From assembly GCA_963082975.1 (NCBI GenBank), contig OY720344.1, positions 13,255,580 through 13,319,579 on the forward strand: a DNA stretch of 64,000 nt. The letters are read 5' to 3'. Origin of the DNA: Labia minor. Its lineage: Eukaryota > Arthropoda > Insecta > Dermaptera > Spongiphoridae. The notes below the pieces were generated by a model. The model saw only the letters and a program-made list of their open reading frames with translations, made no database searches and was not told the origin of the DNA. A program made the translations under genes and the position numbers. The first letter of the stretch is position 1, and every line of letters starts with the position of its first letter. Shown piece by piece: positions 1,232-61,680 of this stretch.

Positions 1232-1239
1232 ACACATAT

Positions 1240-6551: not shown

Positions 6552-6559
6552 ACTGTAAC

Positions 6560-34175: not shown

Positions 34176-34363
34176 ATAATAATAATAATAAAGCGAATAT
34201 TTGTTACGAAAATTTTATACTGTTATATGTCTTTCGAAATGATCCCTTTATTTTTCTCTATTTCTCTCTCACTCACACTCTCAACTAAAATTTATCTTAT
34301 TCTCTAGATTGTAAGAAGTTTCACTTCCGCCACGTGTACGATGCTGCACATTTTGCTTTTTTT

Positions 34364-37333: not shown

Positions 37334-37341
37334 GTTGGTTA

Positions 37342-37458
37342 GGCAGCGATCCAATATTATCGATCCATTTTCGCACTCTTCAGCATTTCGAAACCGTGTG
37401 CCAGTCAAGTCATACTACATCGATTTGAACAAGTAATAATCAGAAGGCACTATGTCTG
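37342..37458 (+). CDS. Candidate first exon (5' UTR plus ATG TCT G), partial gene
   Basis: The segment is single copy and balanced in composition. It ends with a start codon at 37452 and two full codons (Met-Ser) plus one base, immediately followed by gtgagtaag at 37459, a near-ideal 5' splice site. Without splicing the frame would stop after four codons, so a phase-1 intron is required. Upstream are tatcgat (37358-37364, DRE-like) and candidate initiators (ttcagcatt, gccagtcaa). The gene cannot be named because the next coding exon lies beyond what I can identify, perhaps outside the window. An unrelated chance ATG plus donor remains possible. Confidence 0.45.
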
Positions 37459-37880
37459 GTGAGTAAGCAAAGTGAACTACTTTAAGATAGCATTATTACA
37501 TATACGTTTTTAAAAGACTTTCTAACAAATATTTTAGAAATTCATATAATTATTACACCATTAAAAAATTATATTAAAATATTTTATTTTCATAGATTCA
37601 TCGTTAATAATTACAGTGTTTTAATGATATAGTGGTGATAGTCAACAAATTTAAACTTTGAAACATTTTTTCATGGGTAGACATTACAAAACAATTTAAA
37701 TCGTTTATTGTTAATATTTTTTTTATACCAACTTATATATTTATGTTATAATATATTTTTTTAAAAATTCTTACTTTTTTTAATTAATCTTTCTTCTATA
37801 ATATAATTAGTAATTACCTTTAAAAATAAACAAATGTAGATTTTGTCAAAAATTTGCAGAATAATTTTCTAAAACTTTTT
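37459..37880 (+). other. Putative start of a long intron
   Basis: The donor gtgagtaag is at 37459, then AT-rich sequence without an acceptor/exon that I can support. Confidence 0.35.
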
Positions 37881-38458
37881 TACCGACCGACGATAGTAAG
37901 GGAGGTATTGTTTTCACACCAAATTTCACATGTGGAGATTTTTACATACCTCCACGAATTATGCATTTTCTTAACAGAAAAAAGTATTTTTAGCATGATG
38001 TCTGTCCGTCCGTCCGTCCGTATAGATGTGTACAGTTTGAACGGCTCAACGGATTTTGATGAAATTTGGTATATTTACTTAATACATCAATATGATGAAT
38101 TGATCAACTTTTGATGCAAATCCGGAAACCGGAAGTGGTAGTATTAGCGATCGATGATAGGAAGGGTTATTTTCACATCAAATTTCACATGAGGAGATTT
38201 TTTCATATCACCACGAATCATGCACTTTGTATTGGTCGGGAAAAGTTTTTTATTAATTTTAAATTATATGACGTCACAGCCAGCGCCTACTTATATATTA
38301 TAAATTAAAATAAATTAAAAATACTTATGTTATATCGATATCTGTTATTTATTGTATAAATAGATATATTAAAATTATTTGAAATTGTTTCTGTAGCTGG
38401 AAATTAATTTATTTCAAACCGTCGGTCGGTTAAGAGCCTGGCCACAGGTAAACTTATT
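37881..38458 (+). mobile_element. HINE-A copy 3
   Basis: The left end is accgaccgacgatagtaagg, the right repeat ccgtcggtcggt, then the hairpin part gcctggccacaggt and aaacttatt. Three gtcc units. One of the two tgacgtca sites was lost by deletion. The frames 37854-38308 are repeat-derived. Confidence 0.87.
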
Positions 38459-39730
38459 TTATTATTTTGTAAAAGTTTCAATTCCAATTTTACCAATTAA
38501 TTTAATTTATCTTTACCTTTAAGTTAAAAAAAAAAGAAAAAATATCTTATAATATTTACTCTCTTATTTTTAAATAAAAAATAAAAATCCCTTAAGATTA
38601 ATTTTTAATTTATATGACTTTTTAATGGATTAAATAAATATGTCTTAAAAATATTTTTCTATATAGGGTGGTTTGAAGGATAAAATTTAAAAAAAAAAAA
38701 TAATAAAACTAAGTTTATAGACATTTATTTAAACTGATACTTGTAACTTATCTTTTATCCTCCAGAAGACGATTGTTATTTTTCTAGACAAAATCCTGAA
38801 AAATCCTTGTGCACAATCGCTTCAATCTTTTGACAACATTCGGATACTCTTTTCGAGAATCATGTTATATCGTTAGAAAGTAAATTTCATTCATGCAATT
38901 CATTTTAAAGAGAAAAAATTAAAGGATAAAAAAATCACTACATTCGTATATATATAATATGTTGTTTTTTTTATCTATTGGTCACATATAAAGATTGATT
39001 GAAATCTAATAGAAAAATGATAATTTAATTTACTGTTGCCCGATTTTTACTCGTCAATCAATTTATCATTTGAATTTCGTAAAATGTTTCAAAACATATA
39101 ACTTATATAAAACAGTAGATTACAGAACAGCATTAATATATTTGTTGAAAATCAATATTGATTATATCAACAGTATTTTATTAATATAATATACTTACTT
39201 ATATTTAGAATATCTAATTAAAGAAATGTATAAACATTTAATATAATAAAATATTAAAATAATTAATACATTCATAGGTATATATTTACTTATATATTTA
39301 AACCAATAAACTCTTAGTTTAATAAAATTTAAATACAAATTTATTTTGATTAATATAAGATAAGTAAGTAATATATTTTTAGAATTGTAAATTATAATTT
39401 TTATTAAAAAAACATTGACTAAAATGCTACGTTGAATCTGAATGATTAATGATTTCTTTGACTAAATATGAAAGTTATAATTTTTTTTTTTATGGTGAGG
39501 TGAAAATTCCATTATTCACGCCAAGGGGCTCAGATCGAATCGTTTGTACATAACATTCCTGCACCTGAGACTTAATAAGTCACTCCCTTGTTGTGCAGAA
39601 TGGTCTAGAAACGACCATTTTTTATGTGAATCTTCTTCATATATTGTGTGAATTCACGTCTCAAGGTTTCTTCAAAATTTCTGTATTAAATTTTCCCTAG
39701 TGCTAACATTTCAACGACCGCTTCCACTTA
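38459..39730. other. AT-rich non-coding, with a small structured patch
   Basis: No gene. At 39569-39581 gacttaataagtc forms a small inverted repeat, followed by tggtctagaaacgacca (39600-39616), another; a similar pair of motifs occurs near 3803. Confidence 0.35.
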
Positions 39731-40721
39731 AGTCTAGTTTACACGGGCTTAGTTCTTGTCATTAGTTCAGGGGTGGGCAAATAGTTTTAAGCGTGGGTTT
39801 TTTGAACGCCCGACGGCCCGTTTGAAAAAGTTGGCCCTTATTTTGATTTTTCGTTCAATATGTCTCTAAAAAAAAATCGGGAGTATCCTCCCCTAGACTT
39901 TCCCGCATATAAATAGGTATAAAGAGTTGTGAATGAATATTTAGAATGTGTAAACTTGGTATTGATAAAGAGCCAGTTCGTGTTAGTTTATTGGTGTCAA
40001 ATTTGATATTTGGTAACATTTATATATATATATATAGAATAAAGTGCTACTTCCGGTTAACTGATATTTTAAATGTAAAATATCTGGAAGTAAACTGTAA
40101 CTTTACTAAAAAAGGTAAACGCTACTTGTAGAGGTAAAATGTCACTTCAGGTAGTCAGATCATGATGAAATTTGGTATCTGAATTTTTTTCATATTTGTA
40201 AATCTATATACAAAATATGAAGCCAATATCTCGAAGCAAACTGTTACTTTACTTGAAAGGTAAACCCAACCAGTATAGGTAAAGTACCACTTCCTGTTAA
40301 CCGATTTTGACGAAATTTTGATAGAAATCTACAAACTGTGAATAATATCGGTGTACCAAATTTCGAAGTCCTAGCTTGATTAGTTTCTGAGTAAATTTGC
40401 TCACAGACATTACATACATACATCCATACATCTATACATCCATACATACACACATACAGACATAATTCGAAAAATGGTATTTTCCGACTCAGGGAGGTCT
40501 AAAACGTCAAGATCTATCGAAATCTCGAAGTCGAAATTTTTGACGATTACAATACTTCCCTTATACGAAGTATGCGGGAAAGTAAAAAGATAAATTTTTT
40601 TTATTAGTGTTTTCGAAATGTCCTCCGGCCCGGAAGACATTTTGAAAATTTAATTTTGGCCCGCGCTTAAAAGTATTTGCCCTGAACTAATGACAAGTAC
40701 TAAGCCTGTGTAAACTAGGCT
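39731..40721. mobile_element. PIF/Harbinger-like element with long TIRs
   Basis: The outer 60 or so bases are inverted copies (agtctagtttacacgggc with the inverse of agcctagtttacacaggc, continuing through cttgtcattagtt and gggcaaata). TTA flanks both sides (39728-39730 and 40722-40724), the 3-bp TWA duplication typical of Harbinger. The interior is mostly the nested element at 39869-40583. Superfamily is inferred from the duplication only. Confidence 0.7.
39869..40583 (-). mobile_element. HINE-E (Helentron-like), nested
   Basis: The 13-bp inverted repeats actttcccgcata (39897-39909) and tatgcgggaaagt (40571-40583) sit at the two sides. Outside only the left one is the hairpin gggagtatcctccc (39879-39892), the same layout as HINE-A and HINE-B. 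On the minus strand the start region (ggaagtattgtaatcg, then aatttcgacttcgagatttc) parallels that of HINE-B. The minus frames at 40244-40640 are repeat-derived, including a (cata)n-type tract. Confidence 0.75.
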
Positions 40722-41425
40722 TTACCTATCACAATTAAACAGAGTTTGTTTGGCATCATCCCTAGTGTTGGGGGAGAAGTGGCTTTTTGGATCTATAACT
40801 TTGTCGATCATTTAAAGGAAGGCTTTAAAATACTCAGGTCTGTACAAGAACCAACTGACATCATACCCGACCTCTCTATAGATGAATTTAGTCCATGGCT
40901 CAACTTTGAGTATGTTTAGCCATTTCATTTCTCAAATTTTATGCGATTGGCCAACACTTATTGTTAGTCTGATTCATAAATATTTATAAAAGATACTAAT
41001 AAATCAATTTTTGTGGTATACCAAATATTTAAATTAAATTAAATCAATTCTGAACTTAAGCAATAATTGGTGTAATTTACTTTTACAAAATGCACATATA
41101 TATATATATATATATTTATATTTACGTACATAAGTATATATATATATTCTACTTATATACGAGAAGCAGACAAGCAAACAAGCAGCTGCAAAATTAACTT
41201 CGAAAAGTTTCAGTAAGAAAAATTAGGAAGAGATGAAAGTTTATAAAGCAACTTTTTAAATGACAGAAAATTAAACTTTACAAACATTTTCTTCCTTTAA
41301 TGGTTATTTATAATTTAAATATCAGTATTAAAAACGATTTATCACATAAATGATTTAGAATTCGTTCAAAGAAATTATTTATTTCTAGGTCTTTAATATT
41401 ATTTCAAATGTAGTATTTAAATTAT
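40722..41425. other. Mostly AT-rich, with (AT)n
   Basis: A mixed single-copy patch spans 40740-40970. (at)n tracts lie at 41096-41112 and 41135-41148. No gene. Confidence 0.4.
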
Positions 41426-41600
41426 TTTTGAAGTGAAAACTTCTTTAGCGGCGTTGAGCACTTTTGCGGGATGGGGAAAAAATATAGATTTCGCGTGAGA
41501 TTCCAAAACTACCGACCGTTCCAAAACGACCCGACCGACCGACCCGACCGATATACGCATGCGCAATACGCCAGAATGTTAGACACTAACCTTCTGATAC
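41426..41600 (+). mobile_element. Helentron-like element D, 5'-end fragment (related subfamily)
   Basis: It starts tgaagtgaaaacttctttag then cggcg, like the left end of the copies at 32011 and 46667, but diverges afterwards. It contains a gaccgacc microsatellite (41516-41550) and cgcatgcgc. The rest of the element is missing. Confidence 0.7.
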
Positions 41601-41875
41601 ATTCTTTACAAAATGTTACATATTTGCCATATTAAATATTATTATTTATATTTACATTAATAATCAGTATTACTAAATTATGTATATATAAAATAAAATA
41701 TTTTAATATATTATTATGTGTTAAATTATATTAAATTAATTTCTAATATATTTATATCATTTAAAATTAATTTCAGAATATATATATATATATATTAAAT
41801 TATATACTATATATAATATATTATATAATATATATTTTAATAAATTAATTTTTAAATATGTGTGTGTGTGTGTGT
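41601..41875. other. AT-rich with (AT)n and (TG)n
   Basis: Microsatellites lie at about 41780-41793 and 41858-41878. Nothing else. Confidence 0.5.
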
Positions 41876-42385
41876 GTGACCGTAAAAATAAAGATATATG
41901 TTTGATAATTTTTCACATGATTAATAATTGTATAAAACTGCTATATATAGAATTTCAGCTTGATAGAATCGCTGAAAGTACCAGAATTAATTTTTTAACA
42001 CTGGAAATCTCACGCGCCAACACGTGACGTGGTGCCATCAACAAAGAGCCAAACACTCCACTATCCACTCGACTATCTCGCAAATTTGAATTTGATTAAA
42101 TAATATTTATTAATTTAAATTAAATTATAATTTAATAAATATTATTTATAACATCAAAAACATCAAAATCTCAACATCGAAAATTGAATTGCTGAAAGTA
42201 CCAGAATTAATTTTTTAACACTGGAAATCTCACGCGCCAACACGTGACGTGGTGCCATCAAAAAAGAGCCAAACTTTCGCTGGTTAAATAAATATTATTT
42301 ATTAATTTTAATTTATAATTGAATTAATTTAATTTAATTTAAATTAATATATGTTATTTAATCCAATTCAAATTTGCGAGATATG
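41876..42385 (+). mobile_element. HINE-B copy 4, rearranged
   Basis: The internal block (gaaagtaccagaattaattt through cacgcgccaacacgtgacg to caaagagccaaac) occurs twice, at about 41968-42055 and 42188-42275. A stray ccactcgactatctcgc block and a catcaaaatctcaacatcg block lie between. The terminal hairpin is lost at the right (gcgagatatgctg). This is a scrambled, truncated copy. Confidence 0.8.
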
Positions 42386-42719
42386 CTGAATATGCTTTTA
42401 AATAAAAAAAAATTTCAAGAAAGTAATTGGAATTATTAATATTAAGAATCAATAAATAAATTTATTAAATATACATTTAAACATGTAAATTAATCTATAT
42501 ATAAATTTAATAAATATTCAAACAATAATTGAAACAATATAAATAAAACGATTCAATATTTTACTTACATTGTGATTTATATTTTTATTTTTATTACAAC
42601 TATTATTATGGGTATGTTATTTTTGGCAGTTTAAAAAAAAATAAAAATATTAATAAAATTTATCAAAATAATAAGTTGAAAAGATTTCCAATTATTTTTA
42701 TTTATTTATTGTAAATTTT
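42386..42719. other. AT-rich non-coding
   Basis: Nothing recognised. Confidence 0.4.
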
Positions 42720-42960
42720 TCAATGTAACCATGGTAACCATAAATAGACTTTTACCAAAATATTACTATTTAAATTAATTTTAGATAAATTAATTTTGGA
42801 TTTAACTACACTAAAACCTTCCCTGGGACGCCCACAACAATCCCTGAAAGTTTCATCGCAATCGGACGGGTAGTTTTTGAGTATTTGACAGACACACACA
42901 CAGACAGACAGACATATATATATATATATATATTCATACACATCGTATTTTTAATATTTT
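42720..42960 (-). mobile_element. Possible Helitron 5' region
   Basis: On the minus strand a tatata run is followed by (gtct)n and ctacccgtccgattgcgatg, then gggattgttgtgggcgtccc and ggttaccatggttac. The order (tata-rich start, a ccgatt...atgaaactt block, then ttaccatggt) parallels the Helitron start at 30739-30960. No A/TC end could be fixed. Confidence 0.4.
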
Positions 42961-43024
42961 TGTAATAATAATCAGTTTGCTGAAAAAAATAATTATGAAT
43001 TTTATATATATATATATATATATA
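42961..43024. repeat. (AT)n microsatellite
   Basis: About 11 uninterrupted ta units at 43001-43024. Confidence 0.85.
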
Positions 43025-43039
43025 CGTATATAAATTTCA

Positions 43040-43138
43040 TTTTTCTCGTGAAGCTGGTGCGCATTCCGTCTGCTTTCAAATTTCTTACGCACAAGTTTTC
43101 ACTTCTGTCGGCCAGTCCTACGACTGCCAATTCGACTT
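43040..43138. promoter_or_regulatory. Short GC-balanced block, possible promoter
   Basis: Single-copy, CpG-containing sequence with gtcggccagtcctacgac, which includes an initiator-like ccagtcc. No TATA box or open frame. Weak suggestion only. Confidence 0.2.
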
Positions 43139-43900
43139 TTTTTAAATCTTATTGTATGTATTAATCAAAAAGTAAATATCTTAGAATTGTATTTTGTTAA
43201 TCACCAGAGATCATCATTCTTATTTATTTATTATATTCTATAGTATAGAAAACATTTCTAGTATAATAAAAATTTTATTAAATTTTATAAATGTTTAAGG
43301 ATCTGAGTAAAGTCATTAGAAAATATAACATGTATATTATGATACATACACAAAACAAGTGGTTTCTAATCTTCTCTTCATATATTATAAATAAAAATTA
43401 TTATCCCTGTTTCCCTTGGATATCGCATCACTTGACAACGGCTTTATTTCATTCATTTTTTTTATATAAAATTTCTAATACTTTGTTCAAGGTTCTTAAA
43501 ATTAAGAAAATTTGAAGAAGAAAGAATTGTTTGTCAGGTGGCGACACTCCCTCGATTCCCCGTGCATATGGAATGTTTATTTATTTATTTTTTATTTTTT
43601 ATTTTTTTTTTTGACTATAAATTATAATTAATTATTTTTGATAAATTAGGGTATTTTTCAAAATCTTAATAATTTTAAAAAAAGATTTATTTTATTTTTG
43701 TGGTTTATTTGTTTATCGTTTATTTTTTCAATTTCATTTTTTGGGGTATACAAAAAAACTAAGAGCGCTGTCCAAAATTGGTACAAAGGGAAAAAGCGAT
43801 TTTTGCATATACCCATGTGTTATGACAAGTGAATTAAGCTCTAGTGAACGTAAAATAATATATATATATATAGTTAAGACAGTACAAAGTCTACCAGCTA
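43139..43900. other. AT-rich non-coding
   Basis: Short frames at 43291-43515 and 43741-43929 have no motif. A GC-rich patch at 43534-43562 (tcaggtggcgacactc) shares ggtggcgac with the block at 10729. Confidence 0.35.
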
Positions 43901-44130
43901 TAGTCGGAGAGGCCAAAGTTGGTGCCTGAGCCGACCCCCACCCTCGGCCAAACAGTTCCCGCGCTTTCCAACAAGACCACACCGCGCAACTCTGTTGCGC
44001 ATATCACATTTTTTATACTTTAGTTTGAGAGAGTAGAAGACTGTGATGGAGGGGAAATCACTCTAGGATGGGGTACCCCTGCCTCTCCTGGCCGCCACCC
44101 CTCACGCACTAACTTCGGTTTCTCCGACTA
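43901..44130. mobile_element. MITE with TA duplication (Tc1/mariner-like)
   Basis: The ends tagtcggagaggccaaagtt and the inverse of tagtcggagaaaccgaagtt match at 17 of 20 positions. TA flanks both sides (43899-43900 and 44131-44132). The GC-rich core has no coding potential. Confidence 0.82.
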
Positions 44131-44139
44131 TAGTTAGTG

Positions 44140-44403
44140 AATAAACTATTAGAGATAGCTCTCATTTGAATTCTCTCGAAATGAATTTCTGCCTTAAAGC
44201 ATCATTGCTTTGCGAAAGGAACGAAAGAATCCGAGAGATAATGGGTGAATGTCTGACGGTGGGTGGCCGAAGAAGATCTACAAGTGACAACTTTTGGAGA
44301 TTGACCAAATAAAATTTGGAATGACGGCGGTGTGGAGGCGAGGCGGTAGGAGTCTGTGACGACTGGGATGTGAGAGGCGTGTGAATCCGTAAATCAACTC
44401 ACT

Positions 44404-44404
<1 letters not shown>
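44140..44404. other. Higher-GC single-copy block
   Basis: Mixed composition with ggtgggtggccgaagaagat and ggcggtgtggaggcgaggcg. No recognised domain in any frame; a (ta)n tract follows at 44405-44430. Could be an exon or regulatory sequence. Confidence 0.25.
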
Positions 44405-44434
<30 letters not shown>

Positions 44435-44980
44435 TGGTTATGAATATAATTTCTAATTTGCAATTAGTCATTGTTTATTCATATTAGTATCATTATTTTT
44501 TACTTTAACCCATTGGTGACCAAATTTTTTATTTCAATTTTTTTTTCAGTTTTTCATTAGATATCATGTAGATAAATAAAGAAAAAAATATATTTCTACA
44601 AAAAAAAATATTTTTGAAAGGATTTTTGGTGTATAAAAATAAATGTTCCCATTTGTGGGAAGGCTGGTCATTCATGCAAGTAAAATAAAGAAATGCATTT
44701 ATAAAATATTTAATTATTTTTTTATTTTTATTGAATTATAGAAAATTATTAACATCAAATTATGTTTTTAGAATTATAAAAAATTAAACAAAACATAGGT
44801 TCCCAAACAAAGAAAAAATTTTCTTCCATTTTATTCAAGAGTCGTACAGCTCCATTTGGTAACAATATCCTGTACAAGCCATAAACCACTGCTTTAGTAC
44901 AAATCTAACAGGCTTTCCTTGAATAAACTGCTTCATGAAATGGTGACCAAAATTTTCATCGTATTTTCAGAAAATATTCC

Positions 44981-45188
44981 AAATTTCATGAAATTATTAT
45001 TCAATTCTACTTAATTACTTAATTTATATTTCTTATTTTGATTAGGTTTATATTTATATTGTATGACTAACTAAAAAAATTCATGAAATTTCATGAAATT
45101 ATTATTCAATTCTACTTAATTACTTAATTTATATTTCTTATTTTGATTAGGTTTATATTTATATTGTATGACTAACTAAAAAAATATA
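44981..45188. repeat. Perfect 105-bp tandem duplication
   Basis: The unit aaatttcatgaaattattat... ending gtatgactaactaaaaaaa is repeated once with a period of exactly 105 bp and no difference that I can see, so it is recent. Confidence 0.93.
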
Positions 45189-45451
45189 TAAGTTGATCAT
45201 GCCACAAAATAAAATAAAATAAATAAAATAAAAATCTTTATATAACAGCCGAAAGACCAGCTTTCCCAAATGGGAACAATTTATTTGTTGATGTTTTGTA
45301 AACTTCAAATGAAATTTTTTTTATTTATTTGAACTAATTATAACTACTACATAGTAAATAAAAAAAATGTATAAAAACAATAAAACAATAATACCTTATC
45401 ATGAATTTACATATGTTTAAAATTCACAATTACTAATATTTCAAATTTTTT

Positions 45452-46070
45452 TACCGACCGACGATAGTAAGGGAGGTATTGTTTTCACACCAAATTTCAC
45501 ATGTGGAGATTTTTACATATCTCCACGAATCATGCATTTTCTTAACAGAAAAAAGTATTTTTAGCATGATATCTGTCCGTCCGTCCGTCGGTCCGTATAG
45601 ATGTGTACAGCCTGAACGGCTGAACGGACTTTGATGAAATTTGGTATATTTACTTAATGCATCAGTGGGATGAATTGATCAACTTTTGGTGCAAATCCGG
45701 AAACCGGAAGTGGTAGTATTAGCGATCGACGATAGGAAGGAAAGGGTTATTTTCACACCAAAGGAGATTTTTTTATATATCACCACGAATCATGCACTTT
45801 GTATTGGTTTTATACTCGAGAAAAATCATATTTATTAGTTTTTTCTTGATTTAAAATTATATGACGTCATCCAGCCATTCATGATGTCACAGCCTGGTCT
45901 TACATATATATTATAAATAAAATAAAATTAAAAATATTTATGTTATATCCATATCTGTTTTTTATTACATTAATAGATATATTAAAATTATTTGAAATTG
46001 TTTCTGTAGCTGGAAATTAATTTATTTCAAACCGTCGGTCGGTTCGGACCTGGCCACAGGTCAACTTATT
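45452..46070 (+). mobile_element. HINE-A copy 4, inside piggyBac-like element
   Basis: Left end accgaccgacgatagtaagg, right repeat ccgtcggtcggt, then perfect hairpin gacctggccacaggtc and aacttatt. T residues lie on both sides (tttttt/accg and cttatt/tgg). One tgacgtca is intact, the second is tgatgtca. Confidence 0.92.
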
Positions 46071-46252
46071 TGGTTTTTGTTGCAAGCAAGTACTAATAAC
46101 TGCTCTAGCTATCAAATATACTTTTAAAACAAAAGTTAGATTATAATATAATTACACTAGCACAAATTTGGTATCAAATTTAACAATTTACAAACGCTAT
46201 TTAGATTTTTTCTGTTGTTCCCATTTGGGAACGGTGACTACAAATGGGTTAA

Positions 46253-46666
46253 AACTGTGTTTAAGTTGAAATTCACGTATGTAACTTTTTTGGTAAAATC
46301 CCAAATCATTAAATAGCACCTGGTCTATGCATTGGTGTACCAAATTTTTTCTCCTATTTATTAAATTTTCCAAATACATAATGTTAGATTATTTTTTAAA
46401 TTAATTTTTCTTCAACTTAGAGGATTATATTTTAATATAACATGATTTTATTAAATATTTTAATATTGTCAAAAAGTAATTAGATTTTAAAAAGGGCCTT
46501 CATATCTTCATATATTTATATATTATCTATATCTCTCTATATCTAAATATATATATATATATATATAAGCTTCTTAAATTATAGATTCTTTCAAGATTTC
46601 CTAGAGATTTAACATAAAAGTTTCCCTTTAAATTCCCTTTTATTAAATAAATGATGCACAAAAAAA
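46253..46666. other. AT-rich non-coding
   Basis: (at)n near 46547-46566. The small frame at 46197-46379 lacks a motif. Confidence 0.4.
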
Positions 46667-49018
46667 AAAAAAAGCAAAATGTGCAGCATCGTACACGTGG
46701 CGGAAGTGAAACTTCTTACAATCTAGAGAATAAGATAAATTTTAGTTGAGAGTGTGAGTGAGAGAGAAATAGAGAAAAATAAAGGGATCATTTCGAAAGA
46801 CATATAACAGTATAAAATTTTCGTAACAAATATTCGCTTTATTATTATTATTATCTACTCTATCATCATATCTACATTGCCTGTACTATTGTCGGTTGGT
46901 GCTTCAATTGGTAATACTGATATTAATGGCTTGTGATAACTAAAATAAGATATATATGTTCGTGATTCGATATTTTCTATATAACGTGTAAAAACAGCAT
47001 CTATTGTAGTTCCAGATTTTGTTGTTGATTCCTTGGGATCGTTATTTATAAGCAGACCAAATGTTTCTCGAAGAAAGTTGATCAACGGCAACGAATCATC
47101 TCAGATCCAAAATTTACATTAAAATCTCCCCCGAGAATTAGAGGGATTTTATCTTCGCCTCGTTCAAGTGCATTAGCACCTGTGTGGCTATAAACCAGTA
47201 GTGAACGGTGTATGAAATAAATAATATCGTCTAAATTTTGGTCGTTATTTTTTTTCGGCATAGTGAAATCTGTGGAGTAGAGAAAAGCAGTTTTAAATGC
47301 AATAATAATTTTAAATTGATTTAGTAGTGTTAAAGTAATGTTGAGATTCGGATAAATAACGTGAATGGTCATCGACGCACATAACTGTATGTGTTGGCGT
47401 GTGAATCGCCGACCATGTTCACACACACAATTACATGCGTCGGTATGCGTGCACGCTGTATATTTGACTTGAGAATTTTAATTATTTCACGATATATATC
47501 TTATCTTATTATGCTAGCTAAAATTGTATATATCTATCTATTTATCTATAACCATTGGTTCTCAAAAACCGCTCTAACGATTTTTTTCAAATTCACACTA
47601 GATATAGTATTTATAAAGAAAAATTGAGTTTTATTGATTACATCTCTTGAAACTTACAGCTTCATTATTAATTTCTTAATTGAAAATTATATATGGGTGA
47701 CGTAAATGGCATCCATTTTGAAATTTTACTCCCGCCTTTTTTTAATTTTGTATTAATATTTTTTTTATATTTAAAATATTTTAAAATTTATTATTTAATT
47801 TCGAAATAAAATTAAAAATATTTATTTTTAATAAAATATATATATATATTTATTAATCCCGCTTTTTTTTTAAATGATATTGTATTAACATTTTTTTATA
47901 TTTAAAATATTTTAAAATTCATTATTTAATTTCGAAATTTTATATTTAAAATATTTTAAAATTTATTATTTAATTTCGAAATAAAATTAAAAATATTTAT
48001 TTTTAATAAAATATATAAATATATTTATTAATCCCGCTTTTTTTTTAAATGATATTGTATTAACATTTTTTTATATTTAAAATATTTTAAAATTCATTAT
48101 TTAATTTCGAAATAAAATTAAAAATATTTATTTTTAATAAAATATATATATATTTATTAATCTCTCTCAAAAAATATGAAATACGTTTAATATTAAAAAT
48201 AAATAAATATACATATGAAATTTGTTATTTTTTAATATTAAAAAATATTTAATTTGAGATTAATTATATAAAAAATTTTAAAAAATTCAAAAAAACTTAG
48301 CTATAATATTTGACATATGATAAGGTTAATTACAATTTTTTAATAGACATCCTTAATAAATAGAAAAATAATAATTTTTAAATAATATAAATAATATTTA
48401 ATTATAATCTAATCAAAGAAAATAAAAGTTTGAATCTATTTGATAGTTGATCTTTTTACATATAATTAATCTCAAATTAAATATTTTTTAATATTAAAAA
48501 AAAATAACAAATTTCATATGTATATTTATTTTTATAAATGTTTAGGCAAATTTTGAAATTAATATATATTTAAATTCAAATTGTATTTAATTGCGATATC
48601 TACTGGACAAGGTGGAGATCTCGCCCTCTTTTGATCATAAGTCATACTAATTTTTATTCTTTGACCCAGTAGATGCTGAGAAATATTATTCCGGGTCAAC
48701 GTACTCGCGCGCATGCGCGCCATGGATTTTGGACCTAGCGAGAGGGTATTAGAACGAAAGACAGCACAAAAGCAACACGCAGATAGCCTCTTTCTCAAGA
48801 ACGAAAGACCGGACAAAAGAAAGACGCAGATAGCCTCTTTCTCAATAACGAAACACCGCACAAAAGAGAGACGGAGATAGAGGCTATCTCATTCTCACTC
48901 GTTATATCTATATCTTTTTTCTCTCTTGCGTTACGAATGCGTTACGAAATTTCAATTTTTCAATTCACTCTCCATTCTCAACCAAATGTCAGGACGCCGC
49001 TAAAGAAGTTTCACTTCA
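46667..49018 (-). mobile_element. Helentron-like element D, copy 2 (inverted)
   Basis: It is the reverse complement of 32011-34363 over its full length: same ends, tandem arrays and broken endonuclease. The only coding difference I found is one codon in the repeat-derived frame at 48559-48861 (His instead of Leu). The flanks share no direct repeat with the insert. The outer homopolymer (A run at 46661-46673) is longer than in copy 1. Confidence 0.9.
46855..47426 (-). pseudogene. Helentron-type endonuclease fragment, frameshifted (copy 2)
   Basis: It has the same two overlapping frames as at 33604-34175: 47082-47426 ending after GGDFNVNFGSEMIRCR, and 46855-47091 starting PLINFLRETFG and carrying TTIDAVF and SYHKP. 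The protein sequences are identical to copy 1, including the frameshift, so the lesion predates the duplication or transposition. Confidence 0.85.
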
Positions 49019-49689
49019 AAAATAAATGATTAAATAAAGTCCCTTGTTTCATAAGTTATCTATCATCTTCTCTTATTATTAATGAATTTTCATTGATATT
49101 CTCCTTTTCCTTTTATAATATAATAAAACTACACCAAGATATTATACTAAAGAAATTTGAATTATTAAATTAACCTTCAAACTTTTTGAATTTTTATCAA
49201 GAATATAAGTAATTTCAATAATAGTATTAGAAGAATTCATTTCTTCAGAGTTGAAATACATATAATAATATTTATACTAACGATCTGGAATTCTAGTGGA
49301 TATTTGAAATCATAATTATTCATGAGTAGATTTCCGTCCTTAACTCAACTCATATATCTCATTGGATCTGTTTGGAGTAGTTCGAAAGTGGAGATTGACA
49401 TTAGCAATCCTCACTCCTCATAAAATAGTTGCCATTGCTTTCAACATTATTGATTTGGTAGATACTGTTGATTATATACTATTCATCACACCACTGTTAA
49501 ATAAACTACAAATTATTCTACTCTAAAATAAAATTAAAAATATATTTTATTTAATACTCTTATTTTTATTAAAAATACTCTTCTATTTTAAACTTATATA
49601 TTTTAATTTAAAAATCATTTTTTTAAATAAAGAAAAATCATCGTAATATTTATATAAAAAAAACTATGAATATAAATTATAAATATTCT
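49019..49689. other. AT-rich non-coding
   Basis: Nothing recognised. Confidence 0.4.
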
Positions 49690-49965
49690 ATGTAAGGGCC
49701 TATCAGAACGGTTGCCAGCTAAGCAGAGTAGAGGTGATGTATGATCAGTACAATAGATCCTCTCAACTTTTATTTTGATTTTCTTGATCAGAGATCACGT
49801 TATGTTAATTAACTTCACCATTTTGAACACATATGTTGGTTGTTACTCGTTCCTGTTGACCACAGAATGAGGCAAAGTCCTTGACAGTTTCGAAACTTGA
49901 ACCGGGATCCTCAAGCTTGAAAGAGAAATGTGTTGCCCTACAGACTATGGGGAGCCTTATCATAA
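49690..49965 (-). repeat. SINE copy, diverged
   Basis: On the minus strand it retains a T-arm-like cccggttcaagtttcgaaac, the caaggac/gactttgcc equivalent, gatcaagaaaatcaaaata and attgtactgatcat, as in the family. Confidence 0.65.
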
Positions 49966-50654
49966 TATTTATATTTTTAATAAGAATAAAACTATTAAAT
50001 TATTCTATTTTTTCAAATAAGCAAATAAGAATTAAAAAATTATGAATCTATATTAAATAAATCAACCCCATTAGGTATTGCACTACAATGGTTCAGAATG
50101 TTTTAGATCTGAATCATTGAAACCTTTTTATGTTATTAATTAATTAATATGCCTTAAGTGGTTGACTCAAGGAAAAGTTATGTCGTAAAGTTGGATGCGA
50201 ATGTTGACACATCCCAGAAGAGCCACCGGCGTTCCATGTTGAGCAGCCAATTTTATCAGATCGTACAAACCCAAAAGTTATTTTATTATTTTTTGAAAGT
50301 TGACAATTCAAGTGTCGATTTAATTCAATTGTTTAATAATTAAATTACTAATTTTCTTAATCTTTAAGAAAAAGTAAATTTGGAATGTTAATTCATTTTA
50401 CTTTTTAAGTAAATAGTGAGTGCTGTTTAATCAAGAATTCATTTGTCAAAAATATAATGTATTTTATAATTTCAAAATAGAATAATTTGTTCTATTATAT
50501 AGATATTATTATATTATAAATTCTAAATGTTTTCAAATGATTGAAATGTGAAAAAACTACTCTTCTACAAAATAAATATTGGAACATCACACGACTCTAA
50601 AGAGAGAAATATTAATAAGTTAATAAACAAAAATAATTTAAAAAAAAATAAAAA
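49966..50654. other. AT-rich non-coding
   Basis: The 61-codon plus frame at 50158-50343 has no motif. Confidence 0.4.
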
Positions 50655-50822
50655 CCTCTGGCTTTGTACGTCCTACGCAAGTACAATGCCTATCCCGGAG
50701 TCTGGGTTGATTTCTTCCCATAGACCCCAGCAAGAGGAATTCCCTTACCAGGCCCAGAACTTGAACCCGGGACCACGAGAATGTGAGCCATCTACGCTAA
50801 CCTCTTACCCTGTGGTGCCAAA
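50655..50822 (-). repeat. SINE copy with internal deletion
   Basis: On the minus strand the head ggcaccacagggtaagaggt, T-arm ccgggttcaagttctgggcc and the distal cttgcgtaggacgtacaaag are present. The central tgataggac...aagctacttg part is missing. Confidence 0.8.
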
Positions 50823-51755
50823 CAAAATAATTAAATATTATATTACTCTATATTATTAGTGAAAAAGTAACATTATCTAAATTTCAATTGTTTAAATTAA
50901 TATATAATAATTATTCATAAATAAATTCAAGGGAATAACCCCTTGAAATTATCTTTAAATCATGTCATTCATATTAAATCAAAGTTTAAATTATTATTTA
51001 ATTTGAAATAGGTAAATTTAAAATAAAATAAATTAAAATGATGATTTTAAATTAATTTAAATTTTGAAAATGAATTAAAAAGATTCACTAGTGAATAATG
51101 TTATTACAAGATATTATATATGAACAAACTTTTAGGGATATTCAATTTGAGAATTTATATATTAAATCTTATTGTTAGTATCTTCCTCTTGGAAAGTTTT
51201 AAATATAATAATGTTGACTAACATTCATATTTATTCTATTTAGATTAAATAGAAAGTTGGAAAGATATGTTCAAAATATCTTAACGTCCTTGTTTAACAT
51301 CAAATTTCTCTGAAATTAAGTAGGTGATCTGTAATGTGGAATGTTATCCCCTCCGGTCGGACATTGCACGCTATTGGCTAGGGCCTCTTTCAAGCCCAGT
51401 CGTCTCATTGTAATTGATTATTGAGGGTTAATGGAAGATAAAGGAACTTGCCAACCTGTATCTTCATGAGAAATGCATAGGCTCTAGATTTAAGAGATAA
51501 ATGATATAACCTAAAAAGACTGTCAATTTATTTAAAGGGGAAATAGAAAGGAACTTGCAGTCATTTCTCTTCATTAGTATTCTAAACCTTACACGAAACA
51601 AGATATTTAATTTCTTTGTATATTTTTGTGTATAACCCCCCTCCTCGCCGCCGCCGCCAGATTAAATATAAAGGTTTTATAACAGACAATATTAAAATAG
51701 ATAATTAACACTAATTACCAAGCAATATTGTATTTTCATTTTTCTCAATTAGATT
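50823..51755. other. AT-rich, with a mixed-composition island at 51250-51500
   Basis: The island is single copy and includes cctccggtcggacattgcac and gctattggctagggcctc (CCAAT-type attgg). No open frame. Possible regulatory element, unproven. Confidence 0.3.
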
Positions 51756-52414
51756 CGAGGTCTGTTCAAAAGAAAAATGGAATTTTGAATTATTTCGAAA
51801 AGTATTTATTTATTCATCAATATCCATTTTGTCCCCTTCAAAGTAATTCCCCTCAGATATAATGCACTTATGTCAGCGCTTCTTCCAATCGTTGAAGCAT
51901 TTCTGAAATGCGCTTTTCGGTGTGGTCATCAGCTCGTTCTTCGATTCCGACTTTATCTCATCAATTGTGGCAAAACGCTTTCCTTTCATTACTCTCTTCA
52001 GTTTTGGGAATAGGAAAAAGTCGCAGGGAGCCAAATCTGGTGAATACAGTGGTTTAGGCATGATAACGGTTTTGTTTTTGGCCAAAAAATAATTAACAAA
52101 CAATGGTGTGTGAGCTAGTGCATTATGGTAATGCAGAATCCATGATTTGTTTTTCCACAATTCTGATCGTTTGAGCCGTATTGCATTACGCCAACATTGA
52201 ATAACTTCCTTGCAGTTTTTTTAAGTAAAAAATCAAAGAACACACAAAAACGTGACTAATCAGTTTGTCAAAAGCAAACTACTAATCCAAAATGGCTGAT
52301 AATATCAACATATGAGAAACATATGTGTACCAACATAACAAAAAAAATGTCGATAATCGAATGTACACAGCCCGAGAAAATTCAAAATTCATCTTTTCTT
52401 TTGTACAGACCTCG
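51756..52414 (-). pseudogene. mariner-family transposon with dead transposase fragment
   Basis: The inverted ends begin cgaggtctgt and share aaaagaaaa and gaattttga. On the minus strand the C-terminal third of a mariner transposase is readable: EVIQCWRNAIRLKRSELW, then WILHYHNALAHTPLFVNYFL, YSPDLAPCDFFLFPKLK, CFNDWKKR, a stop and HKCIISEGNYFEGD. HYHN replaces the family's HHDN, so the second catalytic aspartate is lost. The Trp codon after KKR has become TGA. The third aspartate (SPD) is kept. The N-terminal half is deleted. Uninterrupted frame 51873-52160. Confidence 0.92.
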
Positions 52415-54225: not shown

Positions 54226-55863
54226 GATATAGTTAGTTTAGCATGTGATGGTTATTTTACATCCATTTTGAATTATTTATTTAGATTTAATTTTGTTATT
54301 GTCTTTAAATTAATTATGAAAAATAAATTCTAAAAATGAATGTGAAGTAAATAAATAGTTCTAAAGAGAAATGAAGGTGAAAATTTAGAATATAATATAT
54401 TCAAAAATATAATAATTAAATTATTTCATAATTTTCTAACAAGTAAAGTTTAATATAACTTTGTACTTAATTCTTCAGAGAAACTGATATAAATTGATTA
54501 TATCGAGAATATAAAGACAAAAATACTTATTTATATAAATAGAAACTTTATTATTTCATATTTGTTACGTGTGTAGTAATTTAACTAAAATTCCTTAGTA
54601 TAATTAATCTTTTTTTCAATTGAATTTTAGTACAATAGATTCTATAATAAATAGAATTGAAAATGCAAATAAAATAGGACATAAACCATCGATTTAAATA
54701 AATATGTATTATTTTTACTATTTTGTTTGAGTTTCAGTTTTTATCTCGACAAGATTTACACACTATAGAAATACGATTATAAAACGTTGAACAATAATAA
54801 ATTGATCTAAATGTAAGGTCATTAGAAGTGTTCATCTATCAAGTGAGATGTGCTTCTTCTTATCTGTTTATTCTGTTCATTGTTATGATTATACCTCTCG
54901 GGTATAGATAGGAAAAGAGAGAGAGATGGGAACCGACAGCTGTACTAACCATCCTTTATAAGTATCTATCCAGTATTATCGATATTTCCTTTCAAATCTA
55001 GCACAGCCCAATCCTGCTATTCAAAGGCTCTTGTTAAATGTTAGCCGATAGTTTTAAAGATAAAAATGATGTAATATTGTTAAACACAATCGAAGATTTA
55101 AGATTTACCTATATTTATATTTAATTTTGTTTTTTTAAATAAATCAATCTGTAAAAAAATTATACAAATCATACGTATTTTTTACATGCTTTTATTTAGT
55201 TTCACATCGTATCCTGTCGTCAAATTCTTGCAAGGTGAATTTAACCCACTTCTTAATGTTCGAATGAGCTGAAATTTTGCATACATATGTAACTCCGGTG
55301 ACAATGCAATATTCAGGTTCATTCATTGGTGAGGTATTATTAATTAATTAATATATAATAGTTTATACATATTAATACATAATATTGAAAAATAGTAATT
55401 ATCTATAAATATATATATATATATTACAATAAGAGCTAATTTTTTCAAAAACCTTATAAAATGTCAATTTGATAAAAATCCTGATATGATACATTTTTCA
55501 TAGGTATATACAACTTATATAATTTAAATATTAAATTCAAAAACTATATTATAATTCTTTCGACATTCACAATATAACACTATACCGCTAATTCTAAAAA
55601 TTAATTTTAAAAATTTATTTTTTTTGAATAGATGGAATTGGCACGTATGATTATTAAGTGGGGTTCTAGGCCCCCAGGGAGAGGTATTACATAACATTAA
55701 ATGAGTTACAACAATTATATTTCACTTCAAATCATGGTAAAGCATTTCTAACCTTTCAGGCACCTTCAAAAACTTTAATTCAATTCAATTCTTTTAACAT
55801 TCACACTATAAATGAAATCAGAAACTAAAAATTATAAAATAAAAAAAATATAATTTTTTTTTT
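54226..55863. other. AT-rich, with mixed islands
   Basis: A single-copy mixed block at 54820-55040 includes ggaaccgacagctgtactaa (E-box cagctg) and ttatcgatatttcc (DRE-like). Another short block at 55225-55330 resembles transposon sequence (cgaatgagctgaaattttgc). No genes. Confidence 0.3.
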
Positions 55864-56178
55864 AAAAACACGTTTTTATTTAAATGCACTAAAAAGGAAA
55901 AAATAATTTCTTCACACGCACCACGATTTCCTTACAATTTATTATATCTAAGAAATGAAAGCTAGGGCGCCAAACATGCAAGGAAAAATTCTACTTCAAA
56001 TAGTCATAGTTATCAAGTATAGTTGAAAAGGGAAAAAAAAAACCAGAAAGGTTTGTGCATATACAATGAAATGTCCTTCGTATTCTTTTCCTTTCCCAGT
56101 AAGGAAATCGTGGTGTGTGTGGAAAAATTATTTTCTCCTTTTTATATATATAGTTCATTTAAATAAAAGCGTGTTTTT
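55864..56178. mobile_element. Fold-back MITE with arms of about 75 bp
   Basis: The left arm (55864-55935) runs aaaaacacgtttttatttaa ... caccacgatttccttac. The right arm (56099-56178) is its inverse, with gtaaggaaatcgtggtg and cttttatttaaatgaa matching. The loop is about 160 bp and contains another partly symmetric segment (gaaaaattct / tattcttttc). No target duplication was identified. Confidence 0.82.
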
Positions 56179-57097
56179 AAAAAGTTTTTTTTAAATTGAT
56201 TTTATATTTCCAATTCATTAGATGAAATTATTATAAAAAAAGCTCTTAAATTTTGTAATTTTTGTGTTTTTAGAAATTATTAATTGAAGTGTTTAAAAGA
56301 AATGTTTAATTGCTGTCTTCCTATATATATAATAACGATTTAATATTTTTTCACAATAATTAGAGAGAAATATTAATATAATTTAAAACCACAAGCATAC
56401 AAAAAGTGATACTATTGCTGCGATCATCTGTATTATGCAATATTACTTCATCCTTGTCACAAAGAACGAAAACAACTGTCGCTCACTTGGCATTGTCAGA
56501 GCCCTAGATCGCAGACTGTCACGACATATCGTTTGCTGAATAACTCTATTTCATTTTATATATTTCAAGTTTTTTTCTATTTAAAATTATTCTTTTCTCT
56601 TCCCTTTCACTTTAAATGATTAAGGGTGAAGACAACGACAAATCGGAAATTAGAAATTTACTTTCCACCAACTTTCCTTTTTTTTCTATTCTTCCAGGAC
56701 AATGCACATATTTTCACTACATTTTGAAAAGAATCATGAAGGTTTATAAATGACACAGTTTGTTTTATATAATATATAATAATTACAATATGCATATTTT
56801 AATTTATGTATCATTTTATCATATTCATTTGGATATGTAAATTTATAAAAAGTTGTATTATAATATTTATAGTTGATATCATATATATATATATATATAT
56901 ATAAATATATGAATCCATATTCTATAATAATAAAAATAATTATATTTAAGATAGAATAATAGATTCTGATCAGTTTGAAATGGAATGGGATGACATTAAG
57001 CCATTTTATTGGTCTTGAACTTTTAACATTTTCTTTAAGACTTTTTCTTGGCATTAGTTGAACAAAATGCGACTGTATTACAATAAATATTGTTAAA

Positions 57098-57134
<37 letters not shown>

Positions 57135-57660
57135 ATATGTATGTATATAATTCTTAAGCTTGTCTTTCTCCATGCTTATATGCCTTTGTGATAAACAAAT
57201 CGTTGACTATAGCGAGAAAGAGGGAAAAAAACCCTTGTAAACCAACCTATTTATGGAAATCAAAATACATTCTTTTTCCGAATGCCAAACACCTTCTGTC
57301 AAATAGATGAAAAAATATTACTATTATCTCTTCTCTTTTTTCCTTTTTTTCCTTCATTATTTGAAATATTAATAAATATATGGATTACTTTAAAAAAATA
57401 TTATTTTTCTTTTCATTTTCCAGAGAAAGAAAGAATCAAAATTTTCAGACTAATAATTCAACTTTGAAATAATATTTATATTTTGATTTATTAAAAAAAA
57501 TAATAAATAAATATTGAAATATTCATATTTTTCTATTAATTTTTTTCCAAGGATTGTAGGGATTCTCTTCCTATACAATTAACTTTGTAGCTTTAAATTA
57601 TCCATTTAATAAAGTTATAAATTTTTATAAGAAAATTGATTGATTAATAATATTTTTTAT
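56179..57660. other. AT-rich, with one mixed island
   Basis: A single-copy block at 56390-56560 (gtcgctcacttggcattgtc, ccctagatcgcagactgtca) stands out. (ta)n tracts lie at 56880-56902 and 57101-57130. No genes. Confidence 0.3.
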
Positions 57661-57691
57661 AAATTACCAGAACATTCAAATATCAATTTTA

Positions 57692-57720
57692 ATTAATTTT
57701 TTTTTTGTTTCTAGGTAAGT
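57692..57720 (+). promoter_or_regulatory. Recursive splice site (ratchet point) candidate
   Basis: A polypyrimidine run (nearly all T from 57697) leads to tttctag, directly followed by gtaagt. Together tttctag/gtaagt is the juxtaposed 3'/5' splice-site consensus of zero-length recursive exons described in long insect introns. Joining exon 37342-37458 here would give ...tctg/gtaagt and regenerate a good donor. It lies about 20.3 kb downstream of that donor. Confidence 0.55.
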
Positions 57721-57761
57721 GAATATTTCAAAAATGTTCCCAAGGCATTCAAAGAAAATTT
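57715..57761 (+). other. 47-nt cryptic exon behind the ratchet site
   Basis: The segment is bounded by the acceptor at 57714 and by a second strong donor, gtaagtatt, at 57762. One frame is fully open (VSEYFKNVPKAFKEN plus two bases). Joined to the phase-1 candidate exon at 37458, it gives GGT AAG TGA, a stop. It could therefore be a recursive-splicing exon that is normally skipped, or a genuine phase-0 coding exon of another transcript. I do not recognise the peptide. Confidence 0.45.
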
Positions 57762-58069
57762 GTAAGTATTTTATTATCATATTTTCAGATTTAATTAAAA
57801 ATGATTATTGATACTTTGCAAGTATCATTTGATTCAATAAAAATTAAAATCTTTCTCAATTATTATTTTTTAATTTTTTAAAAATTATTAAGGAAAGAAA
57901 AACTACCATCTTGAAATTATAAATTAATTTTATAAATGCAATGTAAATTTTAAAAATTTTTCAAAAAATACCAACTTTTTTTTAAATAAAATGTTATTAA
58001 TTTTTTTATAAATTTAATTAAATAGAATAATTAACATAACCTATATTTATCACAATCTTTATTGAAAAT
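57762..58069. other. AT-rich intron-like sequence
   Basis: Nothing recognised. Confidence 0.4.
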
Positions 58070-58537
58070 ATAAGCTGGAGTGTCTCCACTCGACTATCTC
58101 GCAAATTTGAATTGGATAAAATAATATAATATATTATATTTAAATTAAATTTAATTAATTATAAATTAAAATTAATAAATAATATTTATTAAATCAGCGC
58201 ATGTTTGGCTCTTTGTTCATGGCACCACGTCACGTGTTTGCGCGTGATTTGCAGTGTTAAAAAATTAATTCTGGTACTTTCAGCGATTCAATCAAACTGA
58301 AATTCTATATATAGCAGTTTTATATAATTTTTTAACAAGTGAAAAACTATCAAACCTATATCTTTATTTTTACGATCACTTTATACAATTTAGAGGAAAA
58401 AAAATCAAAACGTTGTAGGTAATGACCAACTTCCGGTTGAGCTACATTTCTCAAAAGTTGATAGAAAACTACAAATTTTGAATAATGCTCATGTACCAAA
58501 TTTGATAATTCTAGCTCAAACCGTTTTTGCGTAATCT

Positions 58538-58575
<38 letters not shown>

Positions 58576-58880
58576 GGTACTACTTAATAAAATAAATACT
58601 TAACAAACAAAATTAAAAATAAACATAAACATAAATCGTCCGTTACATTCATCTGCAAGCATAAGAGAGGACTGCAACATAAAACAACCACCGGTCGCAA
58701 GTATCGTAACATAGAGGTCGCTTACATAGCCTTCACACAGCGCCCTCACTTAACTTAAACTTTAAAGGAAATAATTTAAATTATTTCCTACAATATATAT
58801 ATATATATATACACACACATACACAGACAATTTTCTCAATCTTAGTAAAAATGATTCAGGACCCCTTGGTGAGATAGTAA
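58070..58880 (-). mobile_element. HINE-B copy 5, with a later insertion
   Basis: On the plus strand the left end reads taagctggagtgtctcc and gactatctcgc, and the right end is ggtgagatagta. All internal landmarks are present, but the family sequence is broken at about 58545-58810 by (at)n and a foreign segment. Confidence 0.85.
58571..58793 (-). mobile_element. Possible solo LTR inside HINE-B
   Basis: On the minus strand the segment begins tgtaggaaataatttaaatt and includes agggcgctgtgtgaaggc and tgcttgcagatgaatgtaac, ending around gtagtaccctataata. The TGT start, moderate GC and length of about 225 bp resemble a long terminal repeat. The (at)n flanks prevent recognition of a target duplication. 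Confidence 0.4.
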
Positions 58881-59999
58881 TACTAATATAATTCATAATA
58901 ATTCAGGAATTTACTGAAAGATTTTCAATATTAGTTTTCTTTGTCATTTTATTTCAAATTTAAGTTAATATATTTGATAAATTATTTCTCTTAATGTCAT
59001 AAAATAATTAAATCGAAATTAAATATAAATATGTTTGAATTAACTTGTATTACAACTAGAATTTAAAATTATTTATATAAAAATATAGACTATAACAAAA
59101 GAGTACTCTCTTTAATTAAATGCTTAGTAATTTCTTTCTTTTCCTCTGTGCCCCTTGAGAACATTTTAATTTTCATTTTTAATGTCAAGTCACAATGCTG
59201 GTTTTTGTTTTCAATTTTTTTTTATTTTTTCCAACTTTTCATGTCATTTTTATTTAATGTTAGTTTCATATTTATTATTATTATTAATATTATTATTAAA
59301 CTATATTTTTTTTTATTTTCGATTTAAGAAAAATAAAAAAATTCATTAAACGAAAGATAATCAAGTTTGAATAGATTTTAATTTTTTATTTGTCTTTTTC
59401 ATTTTATTCTAAAATATTTTATTGTTACTACTGCTTTAATGAATTTTAAAGTCTAATAGAGATATTATACATTATATATCTTTGTAGGGGTATGCAGATT
59501 TTTCAGATTAATTCGCGAGTTGGTCGTTTTATCTCTAATTATTATTTCAAGATCATTATGATCCGATTAAACAGCTGTGTACACAGTGTTAATGGCTAGG
59601 AAAGAGTTGGCCTTTTGCCTTTAAATATTATCATTATATTATTATTATTTTTTTTTTATTGTTTTATAGAGAAAGGGTAGCAAGTAAAGGGTCATTTTGC
59701 TTATCACAACTTTGATTACACATTAGATGAGAATTTAATTAAAGATTTATTTACTTAACTTGACACACACACCCACACAATATTTTTATTTCTATAAAAT
59801 AATTTTATTTGTTATCTCTCTCTCTATATATATACATTATATACAATATATATATAGAACTATAGAGAATTAAATAATTTATTAATTTAAATAATATTTT
59901 GTTGAATAAATTATGTGAATTTATATCAACCATGCTTTAGAATTTCTTATTAAAATAACAAAAATAAAAATATTTAATAAAAAATAATCTTTGACTTTG
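58881..59999. other. AT-rich, with one mixed island
   Basis: A block at 59485-59640 (ttaattcgcgagttggtcg, aaacagctgtgtacacag) contains an E-box. The rest is low complexity. Confidence 0.3.
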
Positions 60000-60033
60000 C
60001 TTCGCTACCTCCCACCCTATGGCGCCTTTAAAA
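60000..60033 (-). repeat. SINE head fragment
   Basis: On the minus strand ggcgccatagggtgggaggt then agcgaagc equals the first 30 or so bases of the SINE family. Confidence 0.6.
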
Positions 60034-60430
60034 AAATAAAAAAAAAATATTTATGCTAATAATAAATAAATATATAGGTATGTATTTATTTTTTTATTTC
60101 ATCATATTTTTCCTTTCATTTATAAATAATATTTATATAATGAAAATATTTATAGATATCATTTGAAATTATTAAAAAATTTCCAGGTATTTATTTGGAA
60201 TGGAATTTTTTTCAATTCATGCAATATAAATGGTACACGAATTACTGAGAAATCATCATGCTAGAGTTTTAATTAAATTCCACCTGAAATTAAAAGAGCA
60301 CCGGGAATAATAGCAATCCTTCATCACAAAGATAACATAAATATTCGAACACTTGATTAGAATCCTCTTTTAAAGAATAAGAGAAAATAATAGAGAGATA
60401 TATTTCTCATAAATAATATTCTCATTTATT
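60034..60430. other. AT-rich non-coding
   Basis: Nothing recognised. Confidence 0.4.
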
Positions 60431-61059
60431 ACCGACCGACGATAGTAAGGGAGGTATTGTTTTCACACCAAATTTCACATGAGGAGATTTTTACATATCT
60501 CCACGAATCATGCATTTTCTTAACAGAAAAAAGTATTTTTAGCATGCTGTCTGTCTGTCCGTCCGTCCGTGCGTATAGATGTGTACAGCTTGAACGACTC
60601 AACGGATTTTGATGAAATTTGGTATATTTACTTAATGCATCAGTAGGATGAATTGATCAACTTTTGGTGCAAATCCGGAAATCGGAAGTGGTAGTATTAG
60701 CGATCGACGATAGGAAGGGAAGGGTTATTTTCACACCAAATTTCACATGAGGAACTTTTTTTATATTTCACCACGAATCATGCACTTTGTATTGGTTTTA
60801 TCCTCGAGAAAAATCATATTTATTAGTTTTTTCTTGATTTAAAATTATATGACGTCATCCAGCCATTCATGACGTCACAGCCTGGTCTTGCATAAATAAA
60901 ATAAAATTAAAAATGTTTATATTTATTATTTATGTATCCATATCTGTTTTTTATTACATTAATAGATATATTAAAATTATTTGAAATTGTTTCTGTAGCT
61001 GGAAATTAATTTATTTCAAACCGTCGGTCGGTTCGGATCTGGCCACAGGTCAACTTATT
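60431..61059 (+). mobile_element. HINE-A copy 5
   Basis: Left accgaccgacgatagtaagg, right ccgtcggtcggt, then the hairpin gatctggccacaggtc (one mismatch) and aacttatt. Two perfect tgacgtca octamers lie at 60850-60857 and 60870-60877. Closest to copy 4. Confidence 0.92.
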
Positions 61060-61360: not shown

Positions 61361-61680
61361 TGTTCTCGGAGCGACTAAGCAAATTCATGTTGCGCCGGGA
61401 CATATATTTAAAACCTCGCTACCCCCTCTTAGAAGCTTACGATTGGCTATAATAAGCTGGCCATCTATTGGGTCTTCGTTCAGCGCCTAGCACGCTATTG
61501 GTTGTCGAGAGTCCCCACCACTCCACTTAGATGTCGCCAGCCGGGTATAAAAAGCCGTGAAGCAGGCTAGCTTGCCAGTAGCAGTTGTGATTCAAGACGT
61601 TAAGAAGAACATATACGAAGAACGAAGAACGAAGAACCGAAGATTTCCAAGACGTTTATTTTTATCTGTGTATATATTTT
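61361..61680 (+). promoter_or_regulatory. TATA- and CCAAT-type promoter, probably LTR-derived
   Basis: The block is GC-rich compared with its surroundings. It begins tgttctcggagcgactaagc. Two attgg/CCAAT boxes (cgattggctat at 61440, gctattggttg at 61494) precede a consensus TATA box, gggtataaaaag, at 61544. About 30 bases further, ccagtagcagttgtgattca provides an initiator. A gaagaacgaagaac repeat follows. Compact layout and a TG start suggest the U3-R part of an LTR retrotransposon; a host promoter is the alternative. No coding region follows. Confidence 0.5.

Follow-up and report, generated by a model that had tools for sequence, protein, structure and literature searches.

The plus strand of the window (the whole 64,000-nucleotide stretch of Labia minor DNA analysed here) carries at position 57715 a pyrimidine-rich tract and a TAG that run without interruption into a splice donor, and a further donor follows downstream (Table 1). 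The first-pass annotation had described this arrangement as a T tract and tag directly abutting gtaagt, which proved correct when the bases were read one by one: TTTTTTTTTTGTTTCTAG adjoins GTAAGT, and the upstream run consists of ten T (57697-57706), a G, TTT and a C before the TAG. The further gtaagtatt donor that it placed 47 nt on is likewise present, as GTAAGTATT at 57762-57770. The site thus combines the T tract, YAG and fused GTAAGT that are the sequence hallmarks of a ratchet point (recursive splice site), with the one departure that the base preceding the AG is T where the consensus is C. A segment just upstream of the tract was taken by us as a possible branch-point region, from its position and its likeness to a CTAAT-like consensus.

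Table 1. Features of the candidate ratchet point and of its proposed upstream partner.
Feature	Coordinates	Strand	Basis or remark
Candidate first coding bases ATGTCTG, then donor GTGAGT at 37459	37452..37458	+	proposed upstream partner
Possible branch-point region TTTTAATTAA	57687..57696	+	18-27 nt before last base of AG
Polypyrimidine tract	57697..57711	+	14/15 pyrimidines
Candidate ratchet-point 3' splice site TAG	57712..57714	+	sequence
Candidate ratchet-point 5' splice site GTAAGT	57715..57720	+	sequence
Putative 47-nt cryptic RS-exon	57715..57761	+	open in frame 0 only
Putative RS-exon 5' splice site GTAAGT	57762..57767	+	sequence

Surroundings of the site

The window is AT-rich and repeat-rich, with a G+C content of 20-30% in 4-kb blocks. 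A host gene was sought with Pfam, in three frames each with stops written as X, over 24.1-64 kb of the plus strand and over 1-10, 44-54 and 54-64 kb of the minus strand; the coverage of plus-strand 1-24.1 kb and minus-strand 10-44 kb consisted of two single open frames. No host coding exon was recognised by Pfam in plus-strand 24.1-64 kb or in minus-strand 1-10 and 44-64 kb, the lone match being a sub-threshold one to the hAT dimerisation domain (14.4 bits, where the cut-off is 21.4). Comparison of the three plus frames of 37.3-64 kb with the sequences of solved structures gave no match at E 0.1. As a control of the query format, one minus frame of 37302-52301 was compared with the same solved-structure library and a mariner fragment was found, which indicates that the format works. 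Pfam missed this fragment both in the long scan and when it was presented alone, so that the Pfam negatives are weak; neither of the two libraries is a collection of insect proteins. The lack of coding matches in plus-strand 37.3-64 kb is consistent with a long intron, and also with intergenic DNA. No Rfam family reached its gathering score, and ARAGORN found no tRNA.

Several mobile and repeated sequences were observed in the window. The mariner transposase fragment lies at 51876-52220 on the minus strand and is Mos1-like (E 3.4e-7 among solved structures; no Pfam match at E 0.1). Together with the base composition and the repeats, this match suggests insect DNA. Repeats were considered as the largest 20 of 24 direct families and 25 of 54 inverted pairs. 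Among them is an inverted pair of 2358 nt each (32011-34368 and 46662-49019) with 2 mismatches, separated by 12.3 kb, and both copies carry the same 131-codon open frame. Because inverted sequence resembling GAAGTGAAACTTC occurs close to either end of the copies and the flanks differ, this pair is probably a recently active mobile element. We also noted an exact direct duplication of 100 nt (44981-45080 and 45086-45185, starts 105 nt apart) and a repeat family of at least five copies (7016-7612, 20434-20962 on the minus strand, 37872-38443, 45447-46056 and 60425-61045), several of them with TCCG-repeat cores. At 61361-61660 of the plus strand there is a G+C-richer stretch with TATAAAAAGCC, which by its resemblance is possibly an LTR promoter. 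Within 1-300 of the minus strand, the donor CAG/GTGAGT at 264 has the top weight-matrix score in the window and comes third by U1 duplex, and there is a plausible acceptor at 75; this stretch could be the edge of a minus-strand gene, and minus-strand 1-10000 gave no Pfam match.

A repeat origin of the site itself was looked for by self-blastn of 57301-58062 (E 1e-3, low-complexity filter on). The 10 partial matches obtained all fell in 57356-57522, and none crossed the site. An exact 30-mer of the putative 47-nt exon had no match in viral contigs, an unlikely source in any case.

Splice-site strength and donor order

The strength of the splice sites was estimated by a weight matrix with assumed weights, ranking among the 5068 GT and 5236 AG sites, and by the energy of the U1 duplex, for which the sequence of the U1 5' end was assumed. 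In place, the donor at 57715 forms a U1 duplex of -11.3 (rank 5 of 5068 GT) and ranks 12 of 5068 by weight matrix, while its TAG acceptor taken on its own ranks 248 of 5236 AG by weight matrix. Acceptor and donor were then scored together by a normalised score patterned on the one used by Pai et al. (PMC6110457), with assumed weights in place of theirs. With these weights, 57715 reached 0.90 and came top of the 249 AGGT sites on both strands, the next one scoring 0.75; the prior published by Pai et al. begins at 0.8 (PMC6110457).

The second donor, at 57762, had been called strong. This holds for its six intronic bases, which match the consensus, and fails for the donor as a whole, which follows TTT, forms a U1 duplex of -7.3 (rank 77 of 5068) and by weight matrix comes 519th of 5068. 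A cryptic RS-exon calls for a donor some 50 nt beyond the ratchet point; here one is found at 47 nt, and it is middling when taken whole. The ratchet donor is predicted to be the stronger of the two: regenerated on ATGTCTG it would form a U1 duplex of -9.9, weaker than in place, and either value is stronger than the -7.3 of the RS-exon donor. By weight matrix the scores were 6.8 or 7.8 for the ratchet donor and 0.2 for the RS-exon donor. The weight-matrix ranks of the acceptor alone and of the second donor speak against a ratchet point, as does the weaker duplex of the regenerated donor. The sequence shows the anatomy of the site and the predicted order of its donors.

Rarity of the fused motif

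YAG/GTRAG occurs twice on the two strands of the window, at 57715 (plus) and at 264 (minus), and of this pair only 57715 has at least 12 pyrimidines among the 15 bases before the YAG (14 in fact). Under Markov models with 60 simulations each, YAG/GTRAGT preceded by at least 12/15 pyrimidines was expected 0.033 times (order 2) or 0.0 times (order 4) per 64 kb on both strands. Four further chance models, run over 32 Mb each and two of them trained on 55001-60000, gave 0.004-0.016 of the same strong fused motif per strand of 64 kb. Because Markov models treat T-runs poorly, an estimate based on counts was added, which is independent of T-run clustering: multiplication of the proportion of YAG sites with at least 12/15 pyrimidines (80/2291) by the donor frequency gave an expectation of 0.020-0.025. 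A GTRAGT within 130 nt arises by chance in 3.2% of cases, a further factor of about 0.03, and the fused motif together with a downstream donor was found 0 times in 128 Mb of simulated sequence. One such site in this window is more than chance predicts, on figures that measure rarity and are no pre-planned test, since the site was chosen by eye after the window had been read.

These figures bear on the idea that 57715 is a chance or decaying splice-like motif without function, lying in AT-rich intergenic or intronic DNA. Its choice by eye in a T-rich window would fit such a decoy, as would the failure to recognise a host gene in the stretches scanned and the background of RP-sites in large insect introns, where the opposite strand has 0.000-0.122 of them per 100 kb (PMC2773006). 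With 0-0.033 fused motifs expected per window, however, and about 3% of that number with a downstream donor, we regard a functionless motif as improbable and favour a ratchet point.

Coding potential of the 47-nt interval

The 47 nt between the two donors were examined as a possible coding exon. They are open in one of the three forward frames, and of the 47-nt windows sampled in this DNA 69.7% have at least one open frame. Their coding score, calculated with assumed amino-acid frequencies and an assumed third-position bias, is equalled or exceeded by 29% of open 47-nt windows, so that no coding signal above chance was detected by a score that has low power at this length. The 16-residue peptide, submitted with filler, had no family match (a weak result with so short a query), and its one match among solved structures was to a coiled-coil entry at E 0.19; the 20-residue reading from 57715 had no NCBIfam match. 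Neither the coding signal nor the protein similarity of an ordinary coding exon was thus found, within the low power that 47 nt allow, and a coding reading of the interval is unsupported. Since 47 is not divisible by three, the interval would shift the reading frame unless the flanking introns differ in phase.

A conventional coding exon of 47 nt (phase 0 in, phase 2 out, VSEYFKNVPKAFKEN...), starting with GTAAGT by coincidence, or an RS-exon expressed in some mRNAs in the manner of the 51-nt Ubx microexons, would account for the open frame 0 and for the donor that immediately follows it. Expressed RS-exons are indeed known in the fly, at fewer than 50 compared with more than 500 intronic ratchet points (PMC8605326). 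Against such an exon stand the ordinary coding score in a window where openness in some frame is common, the peptide searches, weak as a 16-residue query makes them, and the solved-structure search, which recognised no neighbouring coding exon in plus-strand 37.3-64 kb; an exact GTAAGT at the start of a coding exon also seems unlikely to us. Taken together, we consider a coding or expressed exon rather unlikely, and a cryptic RS-exon attached to a ratchet point the better description of the 47 nt.

Proposed upstream partner

The first-pass annotation had paired 57715 with a candidate exon that ends at 37458. The donor of that exon, at 37459, ranks 3 of 5068 by weight matrix and 7 of 5068 by U1 duplex (-10.8). 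Joining 37458 to 57715 does recreate a donor on paper, CTG/GTAAGT, and entry into the 47 nt in phase 1 gives the in-frame stop that had been claimed (ATG TCT GGT AAG TGA, with the TGA at 57720-57722). Whereas the reading as a ratchet site fits the motif, the 47-nt candidate RS-exon and a ratchet donor predicted to surpass that of the RS-exon, the one thing that points to 37458 as partner is its high-ranking donor, and the pairing is plausible on that ground.

The candidate exon lies directly past a possible hAT-type remnant at 36812-37333 of the plus strand, in which the sub-threshold dimerisation-domain match covers 36812-36925; the end near 37333 was presumed from a terminal-repeat look. A donor at 37224, inside this possible remnant, is the best of the plus strand by both weight matrix and U1 duplex.

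If ATGTCTG were the start exon of the host gene, skipping of the RS-exon would keep the frame and its inclusion would bring a stop after four codons. That 57715 is a regulated switch of this sort and no silent stepping stone, so that in an insect other than Drosophila the choice of donor sets the amount of protein, strikes us as very improbable.

Comparison with known recursive splicing

Vertebrate RS-exons were reportedly described by Sibley et al. in 2015. As they are recounted in PMC8605326, they are short exons with a competing donor at either end, an arrangement that the candidate RS-exon at 57715 would share. The same source describes the ratchet points of Drosophila as acceptor-donor pairs in tandem, accompanied by a cryptic RS-exon that measures about 50 nt, is generally out of frame and generally has a weaker donor than the ratchet point (PMC8605326). 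The site at 57715 resembles the Drosophila intronic ratchet points with cryptic RS-exons, such as those of kuz and Bx, in the pyrimidine tract, in the YAG that runs into GTAAGT, in a donor about 50 nt downstream, in a ratchet donor predicted to be the stronger and in an RS-exon length not divisible by three; unlike them, it is known here from its sequence alone (PMC8605326). The expressed RS-exons m1 and m2 of Ubx (51 nt) share with it a similar length and a donor at both ends, but are a multiple of three and conserved over their full length, in contrast to the 47 nt and ordinary coding score at 57715 (PMC8605326).

Outside Drosophila, the counts tabulated in PMC2773006 for introns longer than 50 kb give, per 100 kb, 2.196 RP-sites on the own strand versus 0.101 on the opposite strand in the fruit fly, 1.029 versus 0.000 in a mosquito, 0.807 versus 0.101 in a beetle and 0.484 versus 0.122 in a bee, with strand ratios of 21.7 (fly), 8.0 (beetle) and 4.0 (bee). 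Unlike these, the large introns of vertebrates show little or no enrichment (ratios of 0.9-1.5), and no ratio above 1.5 is given outside insects and sea urchin (PMC2773006). If 57715 lies in a long insect intron, function would thus be favoured by about 4 to more than 20:1, the downstream donor not counted, as a guide only, since that enrichment was computed with another motif score (based on the human consensus) that does not transfer exactly to this site (PMC2773006). In the literature that we found, by a search with most subscription journals outside its range, experimental recursive splicing came from Drosophila and mammals, and other insects were represented by computational enrichment only (PMC2773006).

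Predicted splicing pathway

We consider that 57715 is probably (at a rough probability of 0.7) an intronic ratchet point, or recursive splice site, of a plus-strand gene, and that it has a cryptic RS-exon of 47 nt and lies within a long intron rich in repeats. This reading combines the anatomy of the site with the Drosophila mechanism, from which we infer both the intron status of the region and all the splicing steps that follow. The 47-nt exon would be recognised by the splicing machinery through the T tract and TAG on one side and the downstream GTAAGT on the other, and the upstream exon would then be joined to 57715. The junction would regenerate an NNN/GTAAGT donor, predicted to outcompete the weaker RS-exon donor at 57762, and the remaining intron would be excised from 57715 to a downstream acceptor. 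With excision from 57715, none of the 47 nt would be left in the mRNA.

By itself, 57715 adds one further likely site to a kind known from fruit flies. With its downstream donor and its place in what looks like a different, repeat-rich insect genome, this clean site would make a good single test case for the rules of donor competition outside flies.
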